Translations under genes and position numbers: made by a program
The notes under the pieces: model-generated
Databases searched by the model: none
What the model saw: the letters and a program-made list of their open reading frames with translations, nothing else
What the model was told of the DNA's origin: nothing
Shown: in pieces, positions 19,561 to 59,253 of the stretch
How the letters are laid out: each line of letters opens with the position of its first letter
Position numbering within the stretch: the stretch's first letter is position 1
Source of the DNA: Arundinibacter roseus
GTDB lineage: Bacteria > Bacteroidota > Bacteroidia > Cytophagales > Spirosomataceae
DNA: 64,000 nt
Reading direction: 5' to 3'
NCBI RefSeq assembly: GCF_004348825.1
Contig: NZ_SMJU01000010.1
Span: 124,001 to 188,000 of the forward strand

Positions 19561-22149
19561 TTATCGGATTTGCTGTCCGATGGTAAAATGGAATTGGCCG
19601 CCACTCCGGGTATTTTGTCCCTGAATCCTGTCGAATCCATAGCCCCAGTCAATTCCCAAAAGTCCGAAGGCAGGCATAAAAATACGGGCGCCCACACCAG
19701 CTGAGCGTTTAATGTCGAAAGGATTGAAATCCTGATAATTTCCCCAGTTATTTCCACCTTCTGCAAAACCAAGCAGGAATATCGTGGCCTGTGGATTGAG
19801 CGAAACCGGATACCGAAGTTCCATCACAAATTTATTGTACACCACTCCACCACCACCGGCAAGGCTGCCATTAGGACTAAGCGGACCTACTTTGCGGTCG
19901 CCATAGCCACGCAAACCAATGATGTCCTGATCGGCCAACGCAAAAGATCCCTGACCAGCCAAACCTGAGCCACCTACGATGAAGCGTCCGAATGGGCTAA
20001 GGCCGACTTTGTCGCCATAACTCCCCAGGAAGCCCATGTGTGCCCGGGCGCTCAGCACGAGTTTTCCAGTGATTGTTGCATACCAACTAGCGTCAAACAT
20101 CCATTTGTGGTATTCCACCAATTTGAATTTCTCCTGCTCATCCGAAAAATCACGCGTTCTGAATGCGGAATAGGGAGGCGTAAAAGTTGCACTAAGTGAA
20201 AACGATGACCCGCTGCGTGGATATTGGAAATCGCTCAGGGTATTTCGTGACAGCGTGGTATTGAACGTAATGTTGTTCGAGATACCGTTGTTATAGCCGA
20301 TGCTGAAAAAGTCCAGGCTGTCCAATCGGTAGCGTTGCAGCGACAGCGAATGACTCAGCACCAAAAAGCGGTCGGGTTCTTTGAGGCGACGCCCAAGCGA
20401 GAACGTGATTCCGTTGTTGTAGTATGAGCCGATAAAGGTTTGCCGACCCGCCGCAACCCGCGTATACATAGAGGCAAAATCGGTGATCCGGTAAACGGTA
20501 CGGGTAAGCGCTACCCCAAAATTGATCGGTTTTTTGCCACCAAACCATGGTTCGCTAAATGAAAGCGAATAGGTTTGAAACTGACGTCCGTTGGCCTGAA
20601 AACGCACCGAAAGCTTTTGGCCATCGCCCGAAGGCAGTGGGCGCCAGGTAGAGCGATTGGGGATATTCCGAATCGAGAAGTTATTAAATACAAGTCCGAG
20701 AGTACCAACAAATCCAATGTAGCCTCCCCATCCACCCGAAAGCTCAATCTGATCGGAAGGTTTTTCTTCTACTGTATATTCTATATCAACCGTTCCATCG
20801 CCTTGGTTGGGAATTGGGTTAATTTGTATTTTCTCAGGATCAAAATAGCCCATTTGCGACAGCTGACGCTGCGTGTTGATTAGCTCGGTCTTACTGAATT
20901 TCTGACCCGGCAGCGTAAACAACTCCCGAAGCACCACGCGATCACTCGTTTTGGTATTTCCGTTCAGAATAATGCGGTTGATAGTCGCCTGTTTTCCTTC
21001 AAAAATTCGTATTTCAATATCAATGGAATCTTTCAAAACCGAGGTTTCGACCGGAAGCGCACGGAAGTACAGATAGCCGTCGTCCATGTACAATGAACTT
21101 ACATCACCGCCAGGAATTCCGTTGATTTTTTTATCCAATTCTTCCGGATTATAAACATCTCCTTTTTTAAGACCCAAAATTATATTCAGCCGGTCAGTCG
21201 TGTGCAGGTAATTTCCTGACCAGGTAATGCTACGGTAAAAATATTTAGGACCTTCTTCAATACGCATCAGGATTTTAATGGTTTCCTGACCTTCGTTCTG
21301 AATGGAGTCAAACTCAATCGTTGCATCGCGATACCCATTTTTGCGGTAGTAGGCAATGAGTTTTTCTTTATCCTCGTCGTACGTTTTGGGAATATATTTG
21401 GAAGGCGTAAACAAGTGCCAAAGCTTTTTTTCTTTGGTTTTTTTCAGCTTGCGTTTCAGTTTTGAGTCAGCTATAGCTTCGTTTCCCTCAATGATAATTT
21501 CATCAATCTTAACCTTATTGCCCTTATCAATGGTAAAATTCAGGGTTGCCTGTCCACGGGTAGAATCGGGAATTTGCACCACTTTTACAGATGTGTTATA
21601 AAAGCCTTTATCCATAAAGTGCTTTTTGATAACCAGTTGGGTATTTTTAATTACCGTTGGCGTAATAACCCGTCCTTTAATCAATTTCACTTTATCGTTC
21701 AGCGTTTCGCGTTCTCCTTTACGGATTCCCGAAAACGTAACTGTGTATAAGCGAGGGCGTTCTTTAATATGAATATTGAGCCAAACCTTTCCTCCTTCTA
21801 CCTTTGTGGCCAGAATTTCTACATCGTCCAATGTTCCAAAATCCATCATCCGTTTAATAGATGACGAAATTGCCGGGCCGGGTACGCGCATTTTGTCTCC
21901 GGCTTTCAACCCTGAAATAGAAATCATGGAGTTCGGATCCAGAAACTGAGTTCCAGAAACGGTCACCTCGGCTACTTCATATTCTTTGGGATCGGCATAA
22001 TTGATTGCCGGTGCTTCTTTCGTCGCCGTCGGTTTGGTGTTACCTCCCAGGCCAATCCGCTGTGCATCTGCCGAAATAGCACTAAGGCAAGCAAGTAGCA
22101 AGGCCCATCCTGTACATTTGAAAGACGTAGACATTTTTACAAATTTCAT
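19561..22149 (-). CDS. bamA: Outer-membrane protein assembly factor BamA
   Basis: Central beta-barrel of the outer-membrane protein insertase. At 862 residues it fits the family. Residues 1-30 are a signal peptide ending near ISADAQ. Residues 45-460 hold the five POTRA domains, readable by phrases such as VKLIKGRVITP, VDEIIIEGN-like KIDEIIIEGNEAI, and RIILNGNTKTSDRVVLRE. The barrel covers about 480-862, and its GLRGYGDRKVGPL stretch is the loop-6 VRGF/Y-type region. It sits 12 bases downstream of uppS and is followed by two ompH genes, so UppS, BamA and chaperones are co-expressed. Confidence 0.96.
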   Translation of the reverse strand: MKFVKMSTSFKCTGWALLLACLSAISADAQRIGLGGNTKPTATKEAPAINYADPKEYEVAEVTVSGTQFLDPNSMISISGLKAGDKMRVPGPAISSSIKRMMDFGTLDDVEILATKVEGGKVWLNIHIKERPRLYTVTFSGIRKGERETLNDKVKLIKGRVITPTVIKNTQLVIKKHFMDKGFYNTSVKVVQIPDSTRGQATLNFTIDKGNKVKIDEIIIEGNEAIADSKLKRKLKKTKEKKLWHLFTPSKYIPKTYDEDKEKLIAYYRKNGYRDATIEFDSIQNEGQETIKILMRIEEGPKYFYRSITWSGNYLHTTDRLNIILGLKKGDVYNPEELDKKINGIPGGDVSSLYMDDGYLYFRALPVETSVLKDSIDIEIRIFEGKQATINRIILNGNTKTSDRVVLRELFTLPGQKFSKTELINTQRQLSQMGYFDPEKIQINPIPNQGDGTVDIEYTVEEKPSDQIELSGGWGGYIGFVGTLGLVFNNFSIRNIPNRSTWRPLPSGDGQKLSVRFQANGRQFQTYSLSFSEPWFGGKKPINFGVALTRTVYRITDFASMYTRVAAGRQTFIGSYYNNGITFSLGRRLKEPDRFLVLSHSLSLQRYRLDSLDFFSIGYNNGISNNITFNTTLSRNTLSDFQYPRSGSSFSLSATFTPPYSAFRTRDFSDEQEKFKLVEYHKWMFDASWYATITGKLVLSARAHMGFLGSYGDKVGLSPFGRFIVGGSGLAGQGSFALADQDIIGLRGYGDRKVGPLSPNGSLAGGGGVVYNKFVMELRYPVSLNPQATIFLLGFAEGGNNWGNYQDFNPFDIKRSAGVGARIFMPAFGLLGIDWGYGFDRIQGQNTRSGGQFHFTIGQQIR

Positions 22150-22161
22150 AGCTTATTTCTT

Positions 22162-22908
22162 TTACCTCCCTACTTTTATCTGTTCACTGGTTTTTCCAAA
22201 TCTACGTTCTCGCCGCTGAAAGGCCACAATTGCTTCATACAAATGGGCTCTTCGGAAATCGGGCCAGTAAACTTCATCATATATATACAACTCAGCGTAC
22301 GCGAGTTGCCATAAAAGAAAGTTGCTGATTCGATGATCTCCGCCGGTACGAAGCATCAGGTCCACGTCGGGCCGTCCCCGGGTAGCCAATCGTTCGTTTA
22401 GTAGACCCTCGGAGATGTCTTCGGGTTGTAACGTCCCTTCTTTTACTTCCCGAGCCAGCTGTTGCGTGGCCTGAATGATGTCCCATTTGCCACTATATCC
22501 CAACGCAAGTATCAAATTAAGACCGGTATTTTGGCTGGTTTTTTCGATGGCTTCCGCCAATTGCCGCTGACAACCGGTAGGGAGGCTATTTACATCGCCA
22601 ATCGAATCCAGGCGGACATTATTTTTTTGCAAGGTAGGAAGTTCATCCCGAATGGTTTGTACCAGAAGTTCCATCAAAGCCTGTACTTCCATGCGGGGTC
22701 TGCCCCAGTTTTCAGTCGAAAACGCATAAAGGGTCAGGTATTCTACTCCCAGTTCGGCACAGCCTTCGGTGGCTTCACGAACGGCTTTAATGGCATTTCT
22801 ATGGCCAAAAACACGCGCAGCGCCCTGCTTCTGAGCCCATCTGCCGTTGCCGTCCATGATAACGGCAATGTGCTTTGGCAGATTGCTCAGGTCAATGAGT
22901 TCTTTCAT
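22162..22908 (-). CDS. uppS: Isoprenyl (undecaprenyl) diphosphate synthase
   Basis: cis-Prenyltransferase that makes the C55 carrier lipid for cell-wall and O-antigen synthesis; at the cytoplasmic face of the membrane. Motifs: HIAVIMDGNGRWAQKQG (catalytic Asp, phosphate-binding loop), YLTLYAFSTENWGRP, NLILALGYSGKWDI, and the C-terminal DVDLMLRTGGDHRISNFLLWQ (shortened here: DLMLRTGGDHRISNFLLW). The length of 248 residues is normal. It leads the bamA-ompH-ompH transcript. The 193-base gap before it (22909-23101) has no gene and no clear terminator for the upstream regulator. Confidence 0.97.
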   Translation of the reverse strand: MKELIDLSNLPKHIAVIMDGNGRWAQKQGAARVFGHRNAIKAVREATEGCAELGVEYLTLYAFSTENWGRPRMEVQALMELLVQTIRDELPTLQKNNVRLDSIGDVNSLPTGCQRQLAEAIEKTSQNTGLNLILALGYSGKWDIIQATQQLAREVKEGTLQPEDISEGLLNERLATRGRPDVDLMLRTGGDHRISNFLLWQLAYAELYIYDEVYWPDFRRAHLYEAIVAFQRRERRFGKTSEQIKVGR

Positions 22909-23101: not shown

Positions 23102-23878
23102 TTACAAATTAAGGAGTATCCGAATCGCTTCGGCATAGGTAGTTCCGCTGTGCAGCGTGGTTGCTTTTCGATCTCGCAGTTGAATAATAAATTTTCCGTT
23201 AAAGTAGCGTTGGACTTCCCCCAAATGATGCGTATTGATCATGGCCGAGCGGCTGATGCGCATGAAGTGCGCCGGGAGTTTTTCTTCCAGGGTAGTAAGG
23301 GTATGGGACACCAGGTATTGCTGTCCTTCGAGAGTATTTAAAAAAACGTATTTGTCTTCGGCCTCAAAATGCGAAACCTCTGTTAATGGAATAAGCAGAA
23401 TGCGGTCGCCGGATTTGACCGACATGGAAAACATTTCGCGTTTGGGCTGCATGCGTTCCAATAATCTCATCATGTTTTCGGCCTGTATGCCGGGCAGAGT
23501 TGCCTGAGTGGCTTCCATGCGGGATTTGAGCTTTTCGACGGTTTTTGCCAGGCGCTCATTTTCGATAGGTTTGAGCAGATAATCAACCGAATTTTCCTCA
23601 AAGGCCCGAATCGCATACTGATCATAGGCCGTGGCAAATACTACCATAGGCATTTGGCTCACACGTGCCAGCATTTCAAATCCGTTAAGGATGGGCATTT
23701 CTATATCAAGAAAAATGAGATCCGGCGCATGCTTCTCGATAAGCGCCAACCCCTCAGCTCCATTATGCGCCTCAGCCAGTATATCAAATGTATCTGAATA
23801 GCCACCCAACAACCGCCGCAGTCGATTCAGGGCAAGCTGTTCGTCGTCAATAATTAGTGTTCGCAGGGGTAATTTCAT
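23102..23878 (-). CDS. LytTR-family response regulator
   Basis: DNA-binding partner of a LytS-type kinase. Residues 5-122 form a receiver domain with LIIDDEQ, the phosphoacceptor site LIFLDIEMPILNG and KP in LLKPIEN. Residues 150-258 are the LytTR beta-sheet DNA-binding domain (YFNGKFIIQLRDRKA). It lies 82 bases downstream of the pentapeptide-repeat kinase in the same direction, so the two are its likely pair. Target genes are unknown; the TonB-dependent receptor upstream in the cluster is a candidate. Confidence 0.93.
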   Translation of the reverse strand: MKLPLRTLIIDDEQLALNRLRRLLGGYSDTFDILAEAHNGAEGLALIEKHAPDLIFLDIEMPILNGFEMLARVSQMPMVVFATAYDQYAIRAFEENSVDYLLKPIENERLAKTVEKLKSRMEATQATLPGIQAENMMRLLERMQPKREMFSMSVKSGDRILLIPLTEVSHFEAEDKYVFLNTLEGQQYLVSHTLTTLEEKLPAHFMRISRSAMINTHHLGEVQRYFNGKFIIQLRDRKATTLHSGTTYAEAIRILLNL

Positions 23879-23960: not shown

Positions 23961-25451
23961 TCAGGCTGGCGAAAAAGTAGATTCCGGTGGCATTTCTTCC
24001 AGACGTTGCTTCCGAATACGCACACACACATGCTTGTCCGGCATATTGCGTAGCTCCACGGAAGCATCTTCCTGATACAGCAATCGAAGTTTTTCCTGAA
24101 TGCTCCTAATGCCATAACCCGCCGAAAGGTTCTCACGAAATGCGGGGCCGTTGTCGTGCACACAGAGCATCAGCCAGCCATTTTCTTCATAAATATGTAC
24201 CCGAATGTACCCGTTCTCGGAGATTTTACTAATCCCATGTTTTACGGAATTTTCAACAATTGGCTGCAACAAAAATCGGGGAATGGCCAGCTCTTTGGTC
24301 GTAGCGCTATCCACCTGTACTTCAAAATTCAGTCGATCACCAAACCGCACCTGTTCGACCTGCAGATAGGTTTGGACCATTTCCAGTTCGTTCTGTATGC
24401 TATCAAAATACTCGTCGTTGGTGCGGCCGGTGGTGTAGCGAAATAAGCGGGCAAGTAAGATGGTCATGAGCTCCGCCTTGTCGGGGTCTTCGTGCACCAG
24501 GCTGGCGATGCTGTTCAGCGAATTATACAAAAAATGGGGATTGATACGCGCCTGCAGGGCGTTTAGTTCAGCGCGGGTTTTGAGCTTTTCCAACGTGAGT
24601 AATTGGTACTCCTGCTCGGAAATTTTGTGGGTGAGTTGCCGGCCCTGCCGGTTGAGGTAATAAAAAAGATTAGCCATCATCAGCGGCCCGAGGGTAAACA
24701 GGTACCAGCGCGATGAGGTGTAGCTCAAACCTTCCGGCTTTTCAACAGGGACATTCTGAAATATGTACTGTCCCCACACAAAATACAAAACGGTGGCAAA
24801 TAAGAGGTAGCCCCCGATTACGACCAAACTAAGAAAACCGTACCGAATCCAGTTTTTTGAAAAGGCCTGATCCAGCCAGGGCGAAATCCAGGATGTGAGC
24901 TGCACGGTAAGGATGCCCGACAGTACGTTGGTAACTACCACATACTGATTTATACGCACCACATGTGGATCAGATTCTGTAAAAATCTGATCCGTAAAAA
25001 AGATAATGCCGCTGGATCCATACACAAAAATGGCTCCTACGAGCATGGCCGTCACCATGCCAATCCAGCTTTGACTTTGCAGCAGAGCGACCAGATTCAG
25101 ATCTGTCCAGCGAAAGGATTTTCCTTTGGAAGAAAAACTGAGATCCAGCCCGTCAATCAGCGCACCGGTCAGGTCGGCGTCTTTCAGGTTGGAATAGCTC
25201 AGATCGGCATCGGTCAGGTCGGCATTTCGAAAGTTGGCACCCGTCAAATTAGCCGCCCGAATGCGGGCTTTGCGCAAAATAGCTCCTTCAAACGATGCAC
25301 CGTTCAGATTGGAATAACTCAGGTTGGCCCCGGTCAGGTCCTGTCTGCTAAAATCAAACTCCCGCAGATTTGATCCTACCATTCGGACCTGACCAGATTC
25401 CTGCTGTTTTCCGGTAAATAGGTTTGCCCAAAACATACACACGTGCGGCAT
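23961..25451 (-). CDS. Pentapeptide-repeat/membrane histidine kinase fusion (LytS type)
   Basis: A 496-residue sensor kinase with an unusual N-terminus. Residues 27-106 are 16 consecutive A(N/D)LxX pentapeptides (SNLRE, QDLTG, ANLSY and so on), which form a right-handed square helix. Four membrane segments follow (about 128-152, 172-192, 205-232, 253-270). The kinase part starts near residue 280 with a coiled linker, then the His box INPHFLYNSLNSIASL, the N-box LLQPIVENSVKHGI and the G-box AGYGIRSIQEKLRLL. No signal peptide is seen, so the repeats are probably cytoplasmic. The cognate regulator is just downstream. Confidence 0.9.
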   Translation of the reverse strand: MPHVCMFWANLFTGKQQESGQVRMVGSNLREFDFSRQDLTGANLSYSNLNGASFEGAILRKARIRAANLTGANFRNADLTDADLSYSNLKDADLTGALIDGLDLSFSSKGKSFRWTDLNLVALLQSQSWIGMVTAMLVGAIFVYGSSGIIFFTDQIFTESDPHVVRINQYVVVTNVLSGILTVQLTSWISPWLDQAFSKNWIRYGFLSLVVIGGYLLFATVLYFVWGQYIFQNVPVEKPEGLSYTSSRWYLFTLGPLMMANLFYYLNRQGRQLTHKISEQEYQLLTLEKLKTRAELNALQARINPHFLYNSLNSIASLVHEDPDKAELMTILLARLFRYTTGRTNDEYFDSIQNELEMVQTYLQVEQVRFGDRLNFEVQVDSATTKELAIPRFLLQPIVENSVKHGISKISENGYIRVHIYEENGWLMLCVHDNGPAFRENLSAGYGIRSIQEKLRLLYQEDASVELRNMPDKHVCVRIRKQRLEEMPPESTFSPA

Positions 25452-25525: not shown

Positions 25526-26179
25526 TTAATTACACTGGCTCAGCATCCAGGCCGCCTGCTCTTTTCCCCAGCCAGGGTGTAGCTCCGTTTCGGGGCGAAA
25601 CTCAGCGTATTTTTCAAGGGCTTTTTCAAGGACTGGTTTCGCCATTTTTTTTCCGCCGCCAAACTGATCCGGTGTATACAGCAGCGTTGTGCCCCGCAGC
25701 GTGTAGATACGCGGGTTATTTGGGTCAAGGGCGGTGGCTTTGGCCAGGCTTTCTTCAAATTTAGTGCCGTAGGTTTGCCAGCGGCTCATGGGGTCTGCCG
25801 CAAGCCGGGCCTGCTGCACCTGTGCTTTCATGACCCACAACTCCGACGACTCTCCGGTTAGGGCTTCGGCTTCTTTCAGGAACGCATCGGCTTTGTCGGA
25901 CATTTGGTCTTTTTCAAGCATATCTTCTCCCATAAATCCCAAAGAACTGTAACAGTAAGCGGCATAGTAGCGAGGCAGCCATTGAGTAGGTTCGGCGGAG
26001 GCAATCCGTTCAAACCTGTTGGCGAGCCCCAGCAACTCGTCGCGTTTGGGCTCGCCTGCCATCGATTGGTGCAGGGCTCGCAGGGCCGACTTCATGGCCT
26101 CGGTGTACTTTTCGGTTTGTGCAAAAGAAACCTGCATGGCAAAAACAAAAATCAGGAGTGTAAAAACGGTCTTTTTCAT
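25526..26179 (-). CDS. Exported TPR-like protein of unknown function
   Basis: 217 residues with a signal peptide (KTVFTLLIFVFAMQVSFAQ). The mature part is alpha-helical with TPR-like phrases: RYYAAYCYSSLGFMG, KAQVQQARLAAD and ATALDPNNPRIYTLRGTTLL. It is likely periplasmic. It sits between a TonB-dependent receptor gene (93 bases upstream) and the pentapeptide kinase gene (74 bases downstream) on the same strand. Co-occurrence suggests a role in receptor-linked transport or signalling, but no catalytic motif is present. Confidence 0.75.
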   Translation of the reverse strand: MKKTVFTLLIFVFAMQVSFAQTEKYTEAMKSALRALHQSMAGEPKRDELLGLANRFERIASAEPTQWLPRYYAAYCYSSLGFMGEDMLEKDQMSDKADAFLKEAEALTGESSELWVMKAQVQQARLAADPMSRWQTYGTKFEESLAKATALDPNNPRIYTLRGTTLLYTPDQFGGGKKMAKPVLEKALEKYAEFRPETELHPGWGKEQAAWMLSQCN

Positions 26180-26272: not shown

Positions 26273-28435
26273 TTATAAATCATCTTTGGTTACTTTGGCT
26301 TTTTTGGAAAGCATGATCTGCATTCCTACAAAAAAACTACGGTAACTCTGCGGGCCGATGGCATAGCGGGTTTTGCCATCGGGTGTGTAGCGGTAGGTAA
26401 ACACGTTGCGGGTATTGAGCAGATTGTCCACAGCCACGTACAAAACCGCAAAGTTTCCTTTGATGGACATAATTTTGCTGGCTGTAAAACTCAGGTTATG
26501 CACCGCCGGCGTCCGGTCGGCCAGGAACACTTCATTGTTAGGATTGTAGTACGGCCGACCGCTCGTATACGCGTAGGTAAAACCCGCACTCGTGGTCAGT
26601 TTTTCAAACCATCGCTTGGCCACCACACTTAGGTTATGGGTTGAAACGAAGGTAGGCGTGGCAGCAACTTCAAATTGTTCAGACAAACGGCGGGTGTCTA
26701 CCAGCGAATACGAAATCCAGTAATCCACATTTTTCAGTGTTTTCTGATCCCGCCAGAAAAAATCTACACCCTGCGCATAGCCCGAACCACCGTTAGTGGT
26801 TTGTCCCCACGGAAACCGATATGGATTGGCATCGAAAGGCTGATTTGTAATTTCCCGCACGAGCTGAGCGTAGTTTTTGTAATAGCCTTCAACCCGAAAC
26901 GTCCGTTTGTTTTTCATGATCTGATAATTCAAAATCAGGTGGTCTGCCCGTTCAAAATTGAGATTCGGATTTTGGTACAGATAGCGGTAGTCGGGATTTT
27001 GGTAAAACTGTCCGGCCGCGAGCGATACCTGACTATATTCACCCGTTTTGTAGGCAAATGAAAGCCTCGGCGCCAGATTGTACCGTCCCAGCAGCGACGA
27101 GTACTCGGCCCGCAACCCAATTCGCCCGGCAAAAGCACGAGTTACGTATACCTCCGCCTCGGCAAAGGTCGCCGCGTAGGTATCCCGCAAATCGTACGTC
27201 CGGTTATCCACGGCATTCCGAAGGTTGATTTGATGCACTTCTGCGCCAAACAATAGAGTGTTGCTGCCTTTCAGCTGATGCGTCAGCACGGTCCGGCCCT
27301 GAATACGCTCGTCGAACCGACCAAAATCATTTCCGTCAAAGGTCATATCATCTTCATTGCGGCTGTACGAAAAGCCACTCAGCAGGCTCCATTTGCCTTC
27401 GTTCCAGTGCGTAGAGTAAGTACTCGTGGTAAATGCATTGCGATTATGCAGGCCAATCTGCGTACGGGTTTCGCTGGCCAGCGGCGCCTGCGTGGTCATG
27501 CCCAGGCGGCTGTCGGAGTACATACCGTATACTTTCAATAGTCCGTTGGAAGACGTTTTGAGACGATACGTAAGCGAGGTTCCCGTAAATTCCGGCTCGC
27601 GCTGCCAGTCAATGGTTTGCCTGACTAGCGCAAATAGCGGTTTCAGATTTCCGTAGTAGGCCACTGCCGACAGCGACTGCCGCTCATCGGCTACATCATA
27701 ATTCAGTGCGGCATTGGCCATATTCAAACTTACGCCGAGGCCATTGTTGGCGGTTTTGTCGGTCGTATGCAGCAGCAGCACCGACGACAGCGCTTGTCCA
27801 TACTGCGCCGAATACCCCCCGGTACTGAACGCCGTTCCTTTAAACATAAAGGGATTGAACCGACCGCGTTGGTTGGCATCGGGCAGTGAGCTGAAAAACG
27901 GATTCTGAACAATCATGCCGTCGATTACTACCTTGGTTTCCTGTCCTGATCCTCCCCGTACAAATAATCCCTGCTGCTCGCCTACGCGCTGGGCACCGGG
28001 CAAAAATTGCATGGCTCCGGCAATATCTGCCAATGCTCCGGCAGTGGTAACGATGTCCAGCGGTTTGAGCATGGCCATTCGTTTTTCGTCCGAAGCCTCA
28101 AACGAACCTGCGGTAATAACCACTGTGTTGAGCTCATTGGCCATTTCGCGCAACACCACCGGAACCGAAATGGGTGTACCGACGAGCCGTAATTTTTTTT
28201 CGAAAGATTCGTAGCCTACAAAACTTACGCTCAATAGGACCGTGTCTTTTTCATACGTTGTAAATTGAAATTTACCTGACGAATCGGACGTTGCCCCGTC
28301 GTAGGTTCCTTTCAATAGTACATTGGCTCCTGGCAAAGCACGCCCTTTTTCACCGGTAATTTTTCCGCTCAGGATGGTTTGCGCCGGGAGCAGAATGGAA
28401 AGATGCAGGAGTACAAAAAGGTATAAAAATTTCAT
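26273..28435 (-). CDS. TonB-dependent receptor with carboxypeptidase-regulatory N-domain
   Basis: Outer-membrane TonB-driven transporter of 720 residues. The signal peptide is followed by a CarboxypepD_reg-like domain (about 20-105; SGKITGEKGRALPGANVLLKG, split as LSGKITGEKG and ALPGANVLLKG), then the plug (QFLPGAQRVGEQQGLFVRGG and IDGMIVQNPFF, the second shortened), then the beta-barrel (about 230-720). It ends FFVGMQIMLSKKAKVTKDDL, so the barrel's final strand is followed by a short charged tail. It is followed by the TPR gene and the kinase. The substrate is unknown, and no SusD-like partner is adjacent. Stretches of 28436-28667 before menB carry no gene. Confidence 0.93.
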   Translation of the reverse strand: MKFLYLFVLLHLSILLPAQTILSGKITGEKGRALPGANVLLKGTYDGATSDSSGKFQFTTYEKDTVLLSVSFVGYESFEKKLRLVGTPISVPVVLREMANELNTVVITAGSFEASDEKRMAMLKPLDIVTTAGALADIAGAMQFLPGAQRVGEQQGLFVRGGSGQETKVVIDGMIVQNPFFSSLPDANQRGRFNPFMFKGTAFSTGGYSAQYGQALSSVLLLHTTDKTANNGLGVSLNMANAALNYDVADERQSLSAVAYYGNLKPLFALVRQTIDWQREPEFTGTSLTYRLKTSSNGLLKVYGMYSDSRLGMTTQAPLASETRTQIGLHNRNAFTTSTYSTHWNEGKWSLLSGFSYSRNEDDMTFDGNDFGRFDERIQGRTVLTHQLKGSNTLLFGAEVHQINLRNAVDNRTYDLRDTYAATFAEAEVYVTRAFAGRIGLRAEYSSLLGRYNLAPRLSFAYKTGEYSQVSLAAGQFYQNPDYRYLYQNPNLNFERADHLILNYQIMKNKRTFRVEGYYKNYAQLVREITNQPFDANPYRFPWGQTTNGGSGYAQGVDFFWRDQKTLKNVDYWISYSLVDTRRLSEQFEVAATPTFVSTHNLSVVAKRWFEKLTTSAGFTYAYTSGRPYYNPNNEVFLADRTPAVHNLSFTASKIMSIKGNFAVLYVAVDNLLNTRNVFTYRYTPDGKTRYAIGPQSYRSFFVGMQIMLSKKAKVTKDDL

Positions 28436-57424: not shown

Positions 57425-58183
57425 CTAGGTCCAACGGCTCACGTAGTCCGAAAACACATCCTTATACTGATCACCAATGGGCACGTGGGCGCTGCCGATT
57501 TGAATATTGTTGCGGGCGATTGCTCCTATTTTTTCAAGATTAACGATAAACGAGCGATGCACACGCATGAAGCGCTCAGCAGGCAGCTTTTCTTCCAGCG
57601 CTTTCAGGCTCGTGAGCGAAAGCAATGGTTTGCTCTCATTCAGGAGATGTACTTTTACGTAATCTTTTAACCCTTCAATGTACAGAATATCGCTGTAAGC
57701 TACCCGGATAAGCTGATATTCGACTTTCAAAAATAGATAGTCTTCTCTGATTGGCTGGGTCTGAGGTGCTTGCTGAACCATGGGCGTTTCGGCTTTGTGA
57801 ATGAGCTCAAAATACGTCAGCGCTTTTGTGGCAGACCGCAGGAATTCCTCGTAATTGAAGGGTTTGAGCAAATAATCAAGCGCATCTACCCGAAACCCTT
57901 CCAGGGCAAAATGATTGAAGGCCGTTGTAAAAATAATACGCGGGCCCTGCCCCTGCGCGCCTGATTTTTCGAGCACCCGCGCCAGTTCAAGACCCGTCAG
58001 GTCCGGCATTTGAATATCCAGAAAAAGTACATCTACCTGCTGCGTGTGCAAGCCCTGCAAGGCTTCCACGGCACTGGAAAAACGTCCCGTAAGCTTTAAG
58101 AAAGGGGTTTTTTCGATAAATGCACACACGAGCCCGAGAGCAAGCGGCTCATCGTCGACGGCCAGGCAGTTTAAAGTTATCAT
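57425..58183 (-). CDS. LytTR-family response regulator (second pair)
   Basis: 252 residues. Receiver domain with LAVDDEPLALGLV, phosphoacceptor in VLFLDIQMPDLTG and LLKPFNYE. LytTR domain from about 145 (EYQLIRVAYSDILYIEGLKDYV, shortened; RFMRVHRSFIVNLEKI). Its ATG overlaps the kinase stop in an ATGA, so it is translated together with the kinase gene upstream. Confidence 0.94.
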   Translation of the reverse strand: MITLNCLAVDDEPLALGLVCAFIEKTPFLKLTGRFSSAVEALQGLHTQQVDVLFLDIQMPDLTGLELARVLEKSGAQGQGPRIIFTTAFNHFALEGFRVDALDYLLKPFNYEEFLRSATKALTYFELIHKAETPMVQQAPQTQPIREDYLFLKVEYQLIRVAYSDILYIEGLKDYVKVHLLNESKPLLSLTSLKALEEKLPAERFMRVHRSFIVNLEKIGAIARNNIQIGSAHVPIGDQYKDVFSDYVSRWT

Positions 58184-59253
58184 ACGGCTTGTAATTCCAG
58201 ATGAACACTGTATTCACTCTCTGCCCGATTTTCCTGCACGTCGAGTGCGTAGCGTCCGGGGTAAAGCAGATCGAGGCGGCGGCGCGTATTGACGAGCCCA
58301 ATGCCGTTGCTTTCTTCCAGATTGACTGATTTTTTATCAGAAAATAGCGTGTTACGTACTTCCACATAAATTTTCCCACCATCCTGCCTGATCAGAATTT
58401 CGATGCGGCTCGGCTGCGTGGCACTCACTCCGTGCTTGAAGGCATTTTCGATAAATGGTAAAAACAGCATCGGCGCAATCGGCACGTCGTTCATCGGGTG
58501 TGGCGGGGTCAGCAGCACCGTCACTTTATCGGTCAGCCGCAGCTGCATAAGTTTGATGTAATCCTGCGCAAAGGCTATTTCCTGACTCAGCTGCACGGTA
58601 CCCTGCTGCGAATCATAGAGTACGTAGCGCATCATGCGCGACAATTTGTGCAGGGCCTCCCGGGAGGCCTCCACGTCAATCACCGTCAGGGCGTAAATAT
58701 TATTAAGCGTATTGAAGAAAAAATGCGGGTTAATCTGCGCTTTTAGAAACGAAAGTTCGGAGTCGATTTTTGCCCGTTCCAGTTTTTGTCGAAGTTCCAC
58801 ATCATGCTGCCATTTCTGAACTACCGCGAAGCTTGTGCTGATACCAATGACCATCAGAGCGGTGAGTAAGGAAAAATAGTCGAACCAATCTTCGCGCCTC
58901 ATGACGCCCGTATTTCTAACCGCCTTAAAGGCGTTTTCCATGCTTTCACGAAGGCCAATCAGCTGTTCTACTTTCTGCACGAGCACTGCTACGGTAATAA
59001 CAGCGACCATATTATAAAGGATAAACTTGCCGGTTCGGTTCATAAACAGCAGCCTGGGAACCCACACCTGCGTATTGACATAAAATATAGCAAGCAGCAT
59101 TCCAAACAATACCGCCTGCTTAACCCAAAACTGCATCGGAATGGTGATACGCCAGGTTAGTGGTTGCCACAGCAAAAGAATTGCCCCAAGCAGTGACCAA
59201 ACCAGGGCCTGAATAACCCAGGGCATGAAGCGGCGTGATGAAAGTGATTCCAT
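58180..59253 (-). CDS. LytS-type membrane histidine kinase (second pair)
   Basis: 357 residues. Four or five membrane segments in residues 10-150, then the kinase: coiled helix, His box INPHFFFNTLNNIYAL, N-box LPFIENAFKHGV and G-box GIGLVNTRRRLDLLYPGRY. It has no N-terminal repeat domain, unlike the pentapeptide kinase at 23961. Overlap of 4 bases with its regulator. Upstream 59254-59649 is the divergent region to the 858-residue receptor. Confidence 0.93.
   Translation of the reverse strand: MESLSSRRFMPWVIQALVWSLLGAILLLWQPLTWRITIPMQFWVKQAVLFGMLLAIFYVNTQVWVPRLLFMNRTGKFILYNMVAVITVAVLVQKVEQLIGLRESMENAFKAVRNTGVMRREDWFDYFSLLTALMVIGISTSFAVVQKWQHDVELRQKLERAKIDSELSFLKAQINPHFFFNTLNNIYALTVIDVEASREALHKLSRMMRYVLYDSQQGTVQLSQEIAFAQDYIKLMQLRLTDKVTVLLTPPHPMNDVPIAPMLFLPFIENAFKHGVSATQPSRIEILIRQDGGKIYVEVRNTLFSDKKSVNLEESNGIGLVNTRRRLDLLYPGRYALDVQENRAESEYSVHLELQAV

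Follow-up and report, generated by a model that had tools for sequence, protein, structure and literature searches.

A histidine kinase with an N-terminal pentapeptide-repeat solenoid in Arundinibacter roseus, and its bare and Toastrack-bearing relatives

The stretch of DNA analysed here (64,000 nucleotides of Arundinibacter roseus; hereafter, the window) contains a histidine kinase gene on the reverse strand (23961–25451; open reading frame of 496 aa). It is adjoined by a gene for a LytTR response regulator of 258 aa (23102–23878, reverse strand; PF00072 and PF04397), as an earlier sequence-only reading of the window had recognised, and the best NCBIfam match of this regulator is BtsR (166 bits versus a cut-off of 246). 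The next gene downstream of the regulator was named by eye as UppS (undecaprenyl diphosphate synthase; 22162–22908) and is followed by a BamA-like gene, also identified by eye (19561–22149). On the other side of the kinase lie a TPR-like protein of 217 aa (25526–26179), with a hydrophobic N-terminus that looks signal-peptide-like by eye, and a 720-aa TonB-dependent receptor with a CarboxypepD_reg-like domain found by Pfam (26273–28435), all on the reverse strand. Elsewhere in the window (57425–59253), a second PF06580 kinase has its own LytTR-like regulator gene and no solenoid.

Based on Pfam, the kinase core (DHp and ATPase domains, residues 271–486; 23994–24641, reverse strand) is a PF06580 His_kinase (E = 6.4e-26, above the curated cut-off) with intact NPHFLYN (from residue 304), VENSVKHG (399), DNGP (433), and GYGI (445) boxes, of which the first contains the presumed phospho-acceptor, His306. 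The VIA structure match for this core was GanS (6swj; Z 17.2, rmsd 4.8, 178 aligned). LytS proper is defined by a 5TM-LYT membrane input domain and a GAF domain, neither of which was present in the Pfam scan of the window kinase at E-values up to 0.01. The sequence-only label of a LytS-type kinase therefore describes the core but not the input end: the protein shares its PF06580 core and LytTR partner with LytS/BtsS-type kinases, but has four membrane helices and an N-terminal solenoid and lacks 5TM-LYT and GAF. From the adjacency of the two genes, we infer that the kinase phosphorylates the neighbouring LytTR regulator.

The N-terminal part of the kinase (residues 27–106; 25134–25373, reverse strand) consists of 16 consecutive in-frame pentads, or four coils of a pentapeptide-repeat solenoid, exactly at the coordinates reported earlier, and matches PF00805 Pentapeptide above the cut-off (E = 6.3e-20). 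The first eight pentads (residues 27–66) are SNLRE, FDFSR, QDLTG, ANLSY, SNLNG, ASFEG, AILRK, and ARIRA, and the remaining eight (residues 67–106) are ANLTG, ANFRN, ADLTD, ADLSY, SNLKD, ADLTG, ALIDG, and LDLSF. The A(N/D)LxX pattern that had been assigned to them is looser than was stated: the pentad centre is L, F, or I in every case, and [AS]x[LFIMV] describes 13 of the 16, whereas the strict A(N/D)L form is kept by only 5. Under a loose rule, a run of 17 pentads occurred in none of 100,000 shuffles of residues 1–125, in which the longest run was seven. No Toastrack domain (PF13349, DUF4097) was matched by Pfam in the window kinase at E-values up to 0.01.

In the AF2 model, the repeats form a four-coil solenoid that is predicted with confidence (pLDDT 84–97 for residues 21–100, and 74 for residues 101–110). 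Residues 21–108 were matched by VIA to MfpA (2bm5_B; Z 13.4, rmsd 2.0, 88 aligned) and the solenoid to HetL (3du1; Z 12.8, rmsd 2.1, 88 aligned), at Z-scores of about 13 that can reflect an arrangement common to repeats. The kinase core accounts for most of the VIA lists, and missing further solenoid matches therefore carry no meaning. The modelled domain has the pentapeptide fold (i.e., a right-handed quadrilateral beta-helix) in common with the stand-alone proteins HetL, MfpA, Qnr, and Alr5209, which differ in having no kinase fusion, and the window protein scores below the NCBIfam cut-off for each of them. This common fold, together with the MfpA match, is what would favour a module of the Qnr/MfpA kind, which mimics DNA or binds gyrase and so couples the kinase to DNA topology. 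We reject this explanation as extremely improbable, given that the solenoid has only four coils and that its NCBIfam Qnr and MfpA scores (18.6–27.5 bits versus cut-offs of 240–500) place it outside both families. Its net charge (−3 in the window; −3 to −10, mean −5.8, across the 42 aligned rows described below) is one that we take to be modest for a DNA mimic. Among other pentapeptide proteins, HetL is described in PMC7476756 as binding the regulator HetR, and PMC1262709 describes cyanobacterial kinases that likewise carry such repeats on a protein kinase, although these are unrelated, Ser/Thr-type enzymes with the repeats at the other (C-terminal) end.

To describe the distribution of the fusion, we used 181 genomes of the window's family, each at least 90% complete. 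A match that runs from the repeats into the membrane domain, unbroken by a stop, was present in 97 of them, representing 12 genus codes (counted by hand, with the query match starting at or before residue 29 and ending at 280), and in a 98th genome (G203, locus L099) the fusion is split by a frameshift. This disposes of the possibility that all orthologues lack the repeats. Named relatives with a match over the repeats include Dyadobacter, Telluribacter, Spirosoma, Fibrisoma, Fibrella, and Runella zeae. Searching genome contigs with an alignment returned 79 loci, and searching with a single protein returned no relative. Detailed comparisons were made in 42 rows, comprising the window and 41 of the other 96 fusion genomes, chosen so that every genus code was covered, the two largest in part. 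Mean pairwise identity among these rows was 0.55 in the repeats, 0.40 in the membrane domain, 0.85 in the DHp helices, and 0.63 in the ATPase domain, and it was 0.31 in residues 107–126. The repeats evolve under purifying selection (dN/dS 0.01–0.28 in 10 pairs, some of them near silent-site saturation).

All 42 members studied in detail, that of the window among them, have repeats and kinase in one reading frame, and the join is accordingly a genuine fusion, as had been proposed. The contrary explanation, that an error of sequencing or assembly joined two separate genes, has one apparent case in its favour at L099 (2684–3140), where repeats and kinase do not share a frame, and a similar one in L172, a Toastrack-bearing member described below. 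Both breaks occur in single-base runs, that of L099 being either a sequencing error or a real break, and the relatives have one frame; with 42 in-frame members, this explanation is refuted.

Outside the family, no fusion was found in an order sample of 291 genomes, and samples of the class and the phylum (395 genomes each) contained it in family members only; these samples overlap, include family members, and have few genomes per family, such that rare cases could escape. Close relatives of the kinase (E-values up to 1e-45) were found in 14 order genomes outside the family, with frames of 369–430 aa that are too short for the fusion. Three genomes of the phylum sample outside the family were matched by the repeats alone: G936 (a 194-aa frame, too short for a fusion), G1125 (a 571-aa frame), and G1075. 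The locus in the last of these (L330, 142–1821), from a distant phylum member, encodes a long pentapeptide array with a C-terminus that is TIR-like by eye and no NPHFLYN-type motif. Among plasmids, 154 records matched, none of them across 80% of the 280-aa query.

Comparison of kinase relatives revealed three forms (bare, pentapeptide, and Toastrack) that have their membrane domain and signalling helix in common. In the Toastrack form, a PF13349 DUF4097 domain of ~320 residues is located where the pentapeptides sit otherwise. A whole-Toastrack-kinase match was counted by hand in 25 of the 181 family genomes, in one of which (G006) the match is interrupted by a stop near its end. PF13349 was above the cut-off in all three family members run through Pfam (L027, L033, and L247), and the remaining Toastrack assignments follow a GG-repeat pattern and tblastn with a Toastrack query. 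For L247, AF2 predicted a beta-rich domain at residues 7–323 (mostly pLDDT >90) on a disordered linker. In the order-level relatives from outside the family, only the bare form was encountered, as judged by length. The Toastrack form may reach past the family, based on a 694-aa kinase relative in a Saprospiraceae MAG (L245, 4520–6601), the N-terminus of which resembles a divergent Toastrack by eye and in which Pfam calls the kinase only. Form labels were given by simple pattern rules, except that L172 (Toastrack) and L099 (pentapeptide) were set by hand; L099 is a pentapeptide row in the tree and in the neighbour counts (43 rows) and is absent from the 42-row alignments.

Phylogenetic trees were built with the solenoid columns excluded. 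The 93-row kinase-core tree required 5 label changes, compared to a mean of 41 for shuffled labels, with the long-branched bare rows L116 and L161 grouping with Toastrack (then 2 changes for Toastrack). A 55-row tree that omits 38 of the 93 rows as long branches or near-duplicates (L116 and L161 among them) required 4 changes, compared to a shuffled mean of 26. In this tree, a single clade (99/96) unites the Toastrack kinases, and the pentapeptide type is nested in bare kinases, which occupy the next splits outward with moderate support (93/96 and 85/89). Two rows within the pentapeptide clade are without repeats: L101, and L100, in which a remnant is possible. Because the two solenoids are on opposite sides of a strongly supported branch and bare kinases are on the pentapeptide side, independent gains are the simplest history, i.e., one gain per solenoid on a bare kinase that was presumably ancestral to both, plus two pentapeptide losses. 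Given that the tree is unrooted, an ancestral Toastrack may alternatively have been lost before the pentapeptides came.

These repeat-less rows, along with bare kinases that have the whole operon, indicate that the solenoid is dispensable for the basic function. The two repeat-less rows also favour the idea that it is a lineage-specific passenger under mild folding constraint with no signalling role, as does its presence in one family only among the samples taken. We nonetheless consider a passenger unlikely, because the solenoid was kept in those 97 genomes and 12 genus codes, its dN/dS is low in all 10 pairs, and the aromatic position on one of its faces is nearly invariant (see below).

Gene order (TonB receptor, TPR, kinase, LytTR) was found in members of all three forms, and neighbours were counted by tblastn with the window's own proteins, in which misses may be diverged copies. 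The LytTR gene adjoins the pentapeptide kinase in 36 of 43 cases, the Toastrack kinase in 22 of 22, and the bare kinase in 21 of 27. A TPR neighbour was present in 24 of 43, 13 of 22, and 21 of 27 loci, respectively, and a TonB receptor in 21 of 41, 8 of 20, and 15 of 24. A tight link of the repeats to the TPR and TonB-receptor genes, which the sequence-only reading had suggested testing, is thus not borne out, since these neighbours went undetected at many pentapeptide loci and also stand beside repeat-less kinases; co-inheritance was rejected because it is not strict in either direction. UppS was found downstream at 17 of 41 pentapeptide, 4 of 21 bare, and 0 of 22 Toastrack loci. Its adjacency in the window suggested a role in the envelope, but it is absent from 24 of 41 pentapeptide and all 22 Toastrack loci. 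At two Toastrack loci (L172, 3104–3685; L162, 5800–6498), a membrane protein of 193–232 aa without a Pfam match is encoded directly upstream of the kinase.

The seven pentapeptide loci without an adjoining LytTR gene all belong to genus code g31, the only one in which both solenoid forms occur, which includes species with the pentapeptide form only, species with the Toastrack form only, and two genomes (G169 and G170) with both. Toastrack kinases of g31 keep LytTR. At L112 (2492–5946) and L168 (3403–6926), an orphan pentapeptide kinase without LytTR is found at another locus, beside three genes, of which one belongs to the SpoIIM family (from Pfam, in the case of L112), one is RDD-like by eye, and one encodes an uncharacterised membrane protein. 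Replacement of Toastrack by pentapeptides at one locus within the genus was rejected: the pentapeptide kinases of L112 and L168 are at SpoIIM/RDD loci and the Toastrack ones of g31 are with LytTR, and there was accordingly no displacement within a locus.

In the window kinase, the solenoid is followed by a flexible linker (about residues 107–118; 25098–25133, reverse strand; pLDDT <50 for residues 110–118) and a four-helix membrane domain (residues 129–270; 24642–25067, reverse strand) that is common to the Toastrack-type and bare relatives. Four membrane segments had been proposed, but hydropathy is clear for only three (133–151, 171–189, and 207–225), the fourth being weakly hydrophobic. The AF2 model has four helices (129–146/150–158, 162–196, 200–232, and 249–301), the last of which runs from the membrane into the kinase, and four is therefore the better count. 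Together with a kinase that must be inside the cell, four helices would put the N-terminus, and hence the solenoid, on the inner side of the membrane. The solenoid is thus probably cytoplasmic, as was suggested earlier, and no signal peptide was seen by eye. Among the 18 of 42 pentapeptide rows in which hydropathy called four segments, mean K+R counts (1.2 in loop 1–2, 3.1 in loop 2–3, and 3.2 after TM4) broadly fit an N-in orientation, even though loop 3–4 has 2.6.

A periplasmic N-terminus with repeats that sense the envelope directly would agree with the odd number of segments (three) called in the other 24 of the 42 rows, and with neighbours that are outer-membrane and putatively exported proteins. 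PMC9239133 also places the DUF4097 domain of LiaG outside the cell; the membrane side of Toastrack is disputed between that paper (extracellular) and PMC11237479 (intracellular). We regard a periplasmic solenoid as very improbable, because it has no apparent signal peptide, because hydropathy called four segments in the homologous membrane domain of most bare (23 of 28) and Toastrack rows (19 of 21), and because the modelled helices and, loop 3–4 apart, the loop charges point to N-in.

The solenoid has an aromatic ladder on its face 4 (25134–25316, reverse strand), formed by position i+2 of every fourth repeat (residues 46, 66, 86, and 106). In the window these are Y46 (25314–25316), A66, Y86 (25194–25196), and F106 (25134–25136); residue 66, Ala in the window, is Phe in 38 of the 42 rows. 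Across these rows, Phe or Tyr occupies 159 of 168 cells on face 4, compared to 3 of 504 for position i+2 on faces 1–3. Aromatics occur at other repeat positions as well: face 2 has 21 of 168 at i−2, and face 3 has 11 of 168 at i+1. Six other pentapeptide ORFs, taken as a control after dropping two L105 frames without the A(N/D)L pattern (0/10 and 0/11), had aromatics at 6 of 94 positions. In the canonical pentapeptide fold, i+2 side chains point outward. By this geometry, the ladder should form a stacked aromatic strip along one face, where docking or dimer contacts might be made.

Dimers are generally the working form of histidine kinases, and an uninterrupted hydrophobic ladder along a single face is well suited to a symmetric interface. 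The solenoid could accordingly be a dimer clamp or stability module, in which the aromatic face packs on its twin face or on the protein's own membrane helices and sets the resting state with no outside partner. This possibility is doubtful, although it is the strongest of the competing explanations: it leaves unexplained why relatives have an unrelated, approximately four-times-larger solenoid at the same end, and bare kinases manage without one.

Among the open-licence papers listed (titles and abstract openings), we found no description of pentapeptide repeats fused to a histidine kinase, LytS, or LytTR, consistent with the earlier statement that no sensing role is known to have been described for this combination. 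The closest parallel is Toastrack (DUF4097/DUF2154/DUF2807) of the extended PSP/Lia envelope-stress network, which Ravi et al. (PMC11237479) propose as an intracellular surface that assembles sub-membrane signalling complexes. As in the window kinase, a beta-solenoid stands there beside a multi-helix membrane domain with two-component or LytTR output, and Toastrack occupies the same end in the kinase relatives. The window kinase differs in having pentapeptides, in a membrane domain that Pfam did not recognise as LiaI-LiaF-TM (it gave only a DUF3392 match below cut-off in the four-helix region), and in that no PspC gene was found at the locus (five PspC matches in the window's genome are on contigs C8, C22, C43, and C44, and none on the window's contig, C1). 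The same source notes that HAAS domains may pair with Toastrack or with pentapeptide repeats, the latter mostly in Firmicutes. On that account, the window's kinase family is a second case in which the two kinds of solenoid alternate on one sensor module, differing from HAAS in that the HAAS-PadR system is without a histidine kinase and belongs to another phylum.

The Toastrack docking proposal and the HAAS alternation together led us to read the solenoid as a docking or scaffold input, and the existence of relatives that are bare or carry an unrelated solenoid suggests that solenoids are exchangeable docking surfaces. We propose, with middling confidence, that the pentapeptide solenoid is a cytoplasmic, membrane-proximal docking or scaffold input to a kinase with LytTR output, and a counterpart of Toastrack. 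The four coils would hang in the cytoplasm by the flexible linker, just beneath the membrane, and offer a surface for protein docking or scaffolding. A membrane or envelope protein, or a second subunit, would bind the aromatic face, making the input signal of the kinase an envelope-related one. Binding would bias the four-helix membrane domain and, via that domain, the kinase, and its output would pass by phosphotransfer through the neighbouring LytTR regulator. The pentapeptide solenoid and Toastrack would then be counterparts at the same end, each added to an ancestral bare kinase. The input or scaffold role that the sequence-only reading had suggested gains support from the Toastrack parallel.

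A broader and more tentative version of the docking proposal is that two unrelated beta-solenoids were independently recruited to the same kinase end because all that the input dock requires is a rigid solenoid beneath the membrane with one sticky face, and that pentapeptide repeats read the assembly or crowding of membrane proteins. If true, they would form a general and so far unrecognised class of input domains that serve sensor kinases inside the cell. Pentapeptide repeats occur very widely, and most are of no known function. What makes the kinase described here valuable is not so much the fusion as the natural series of bare, pentapeptide, and Toastrack relatives, which are often at one conserved locus and permit a direct test of what a solenoid contributes to signalling. 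The series may also offer a handle on envelope-state sensing in the window's family.

Separate Toastrack-like frames of 378 and 347 aa were also found (G008:C1:128534-129478 and G000:C43:274670-275149), in genomes that have pentapeptide kinases, including that of the window. They are possible interaction partners of these kinases or possible donors of the domain.
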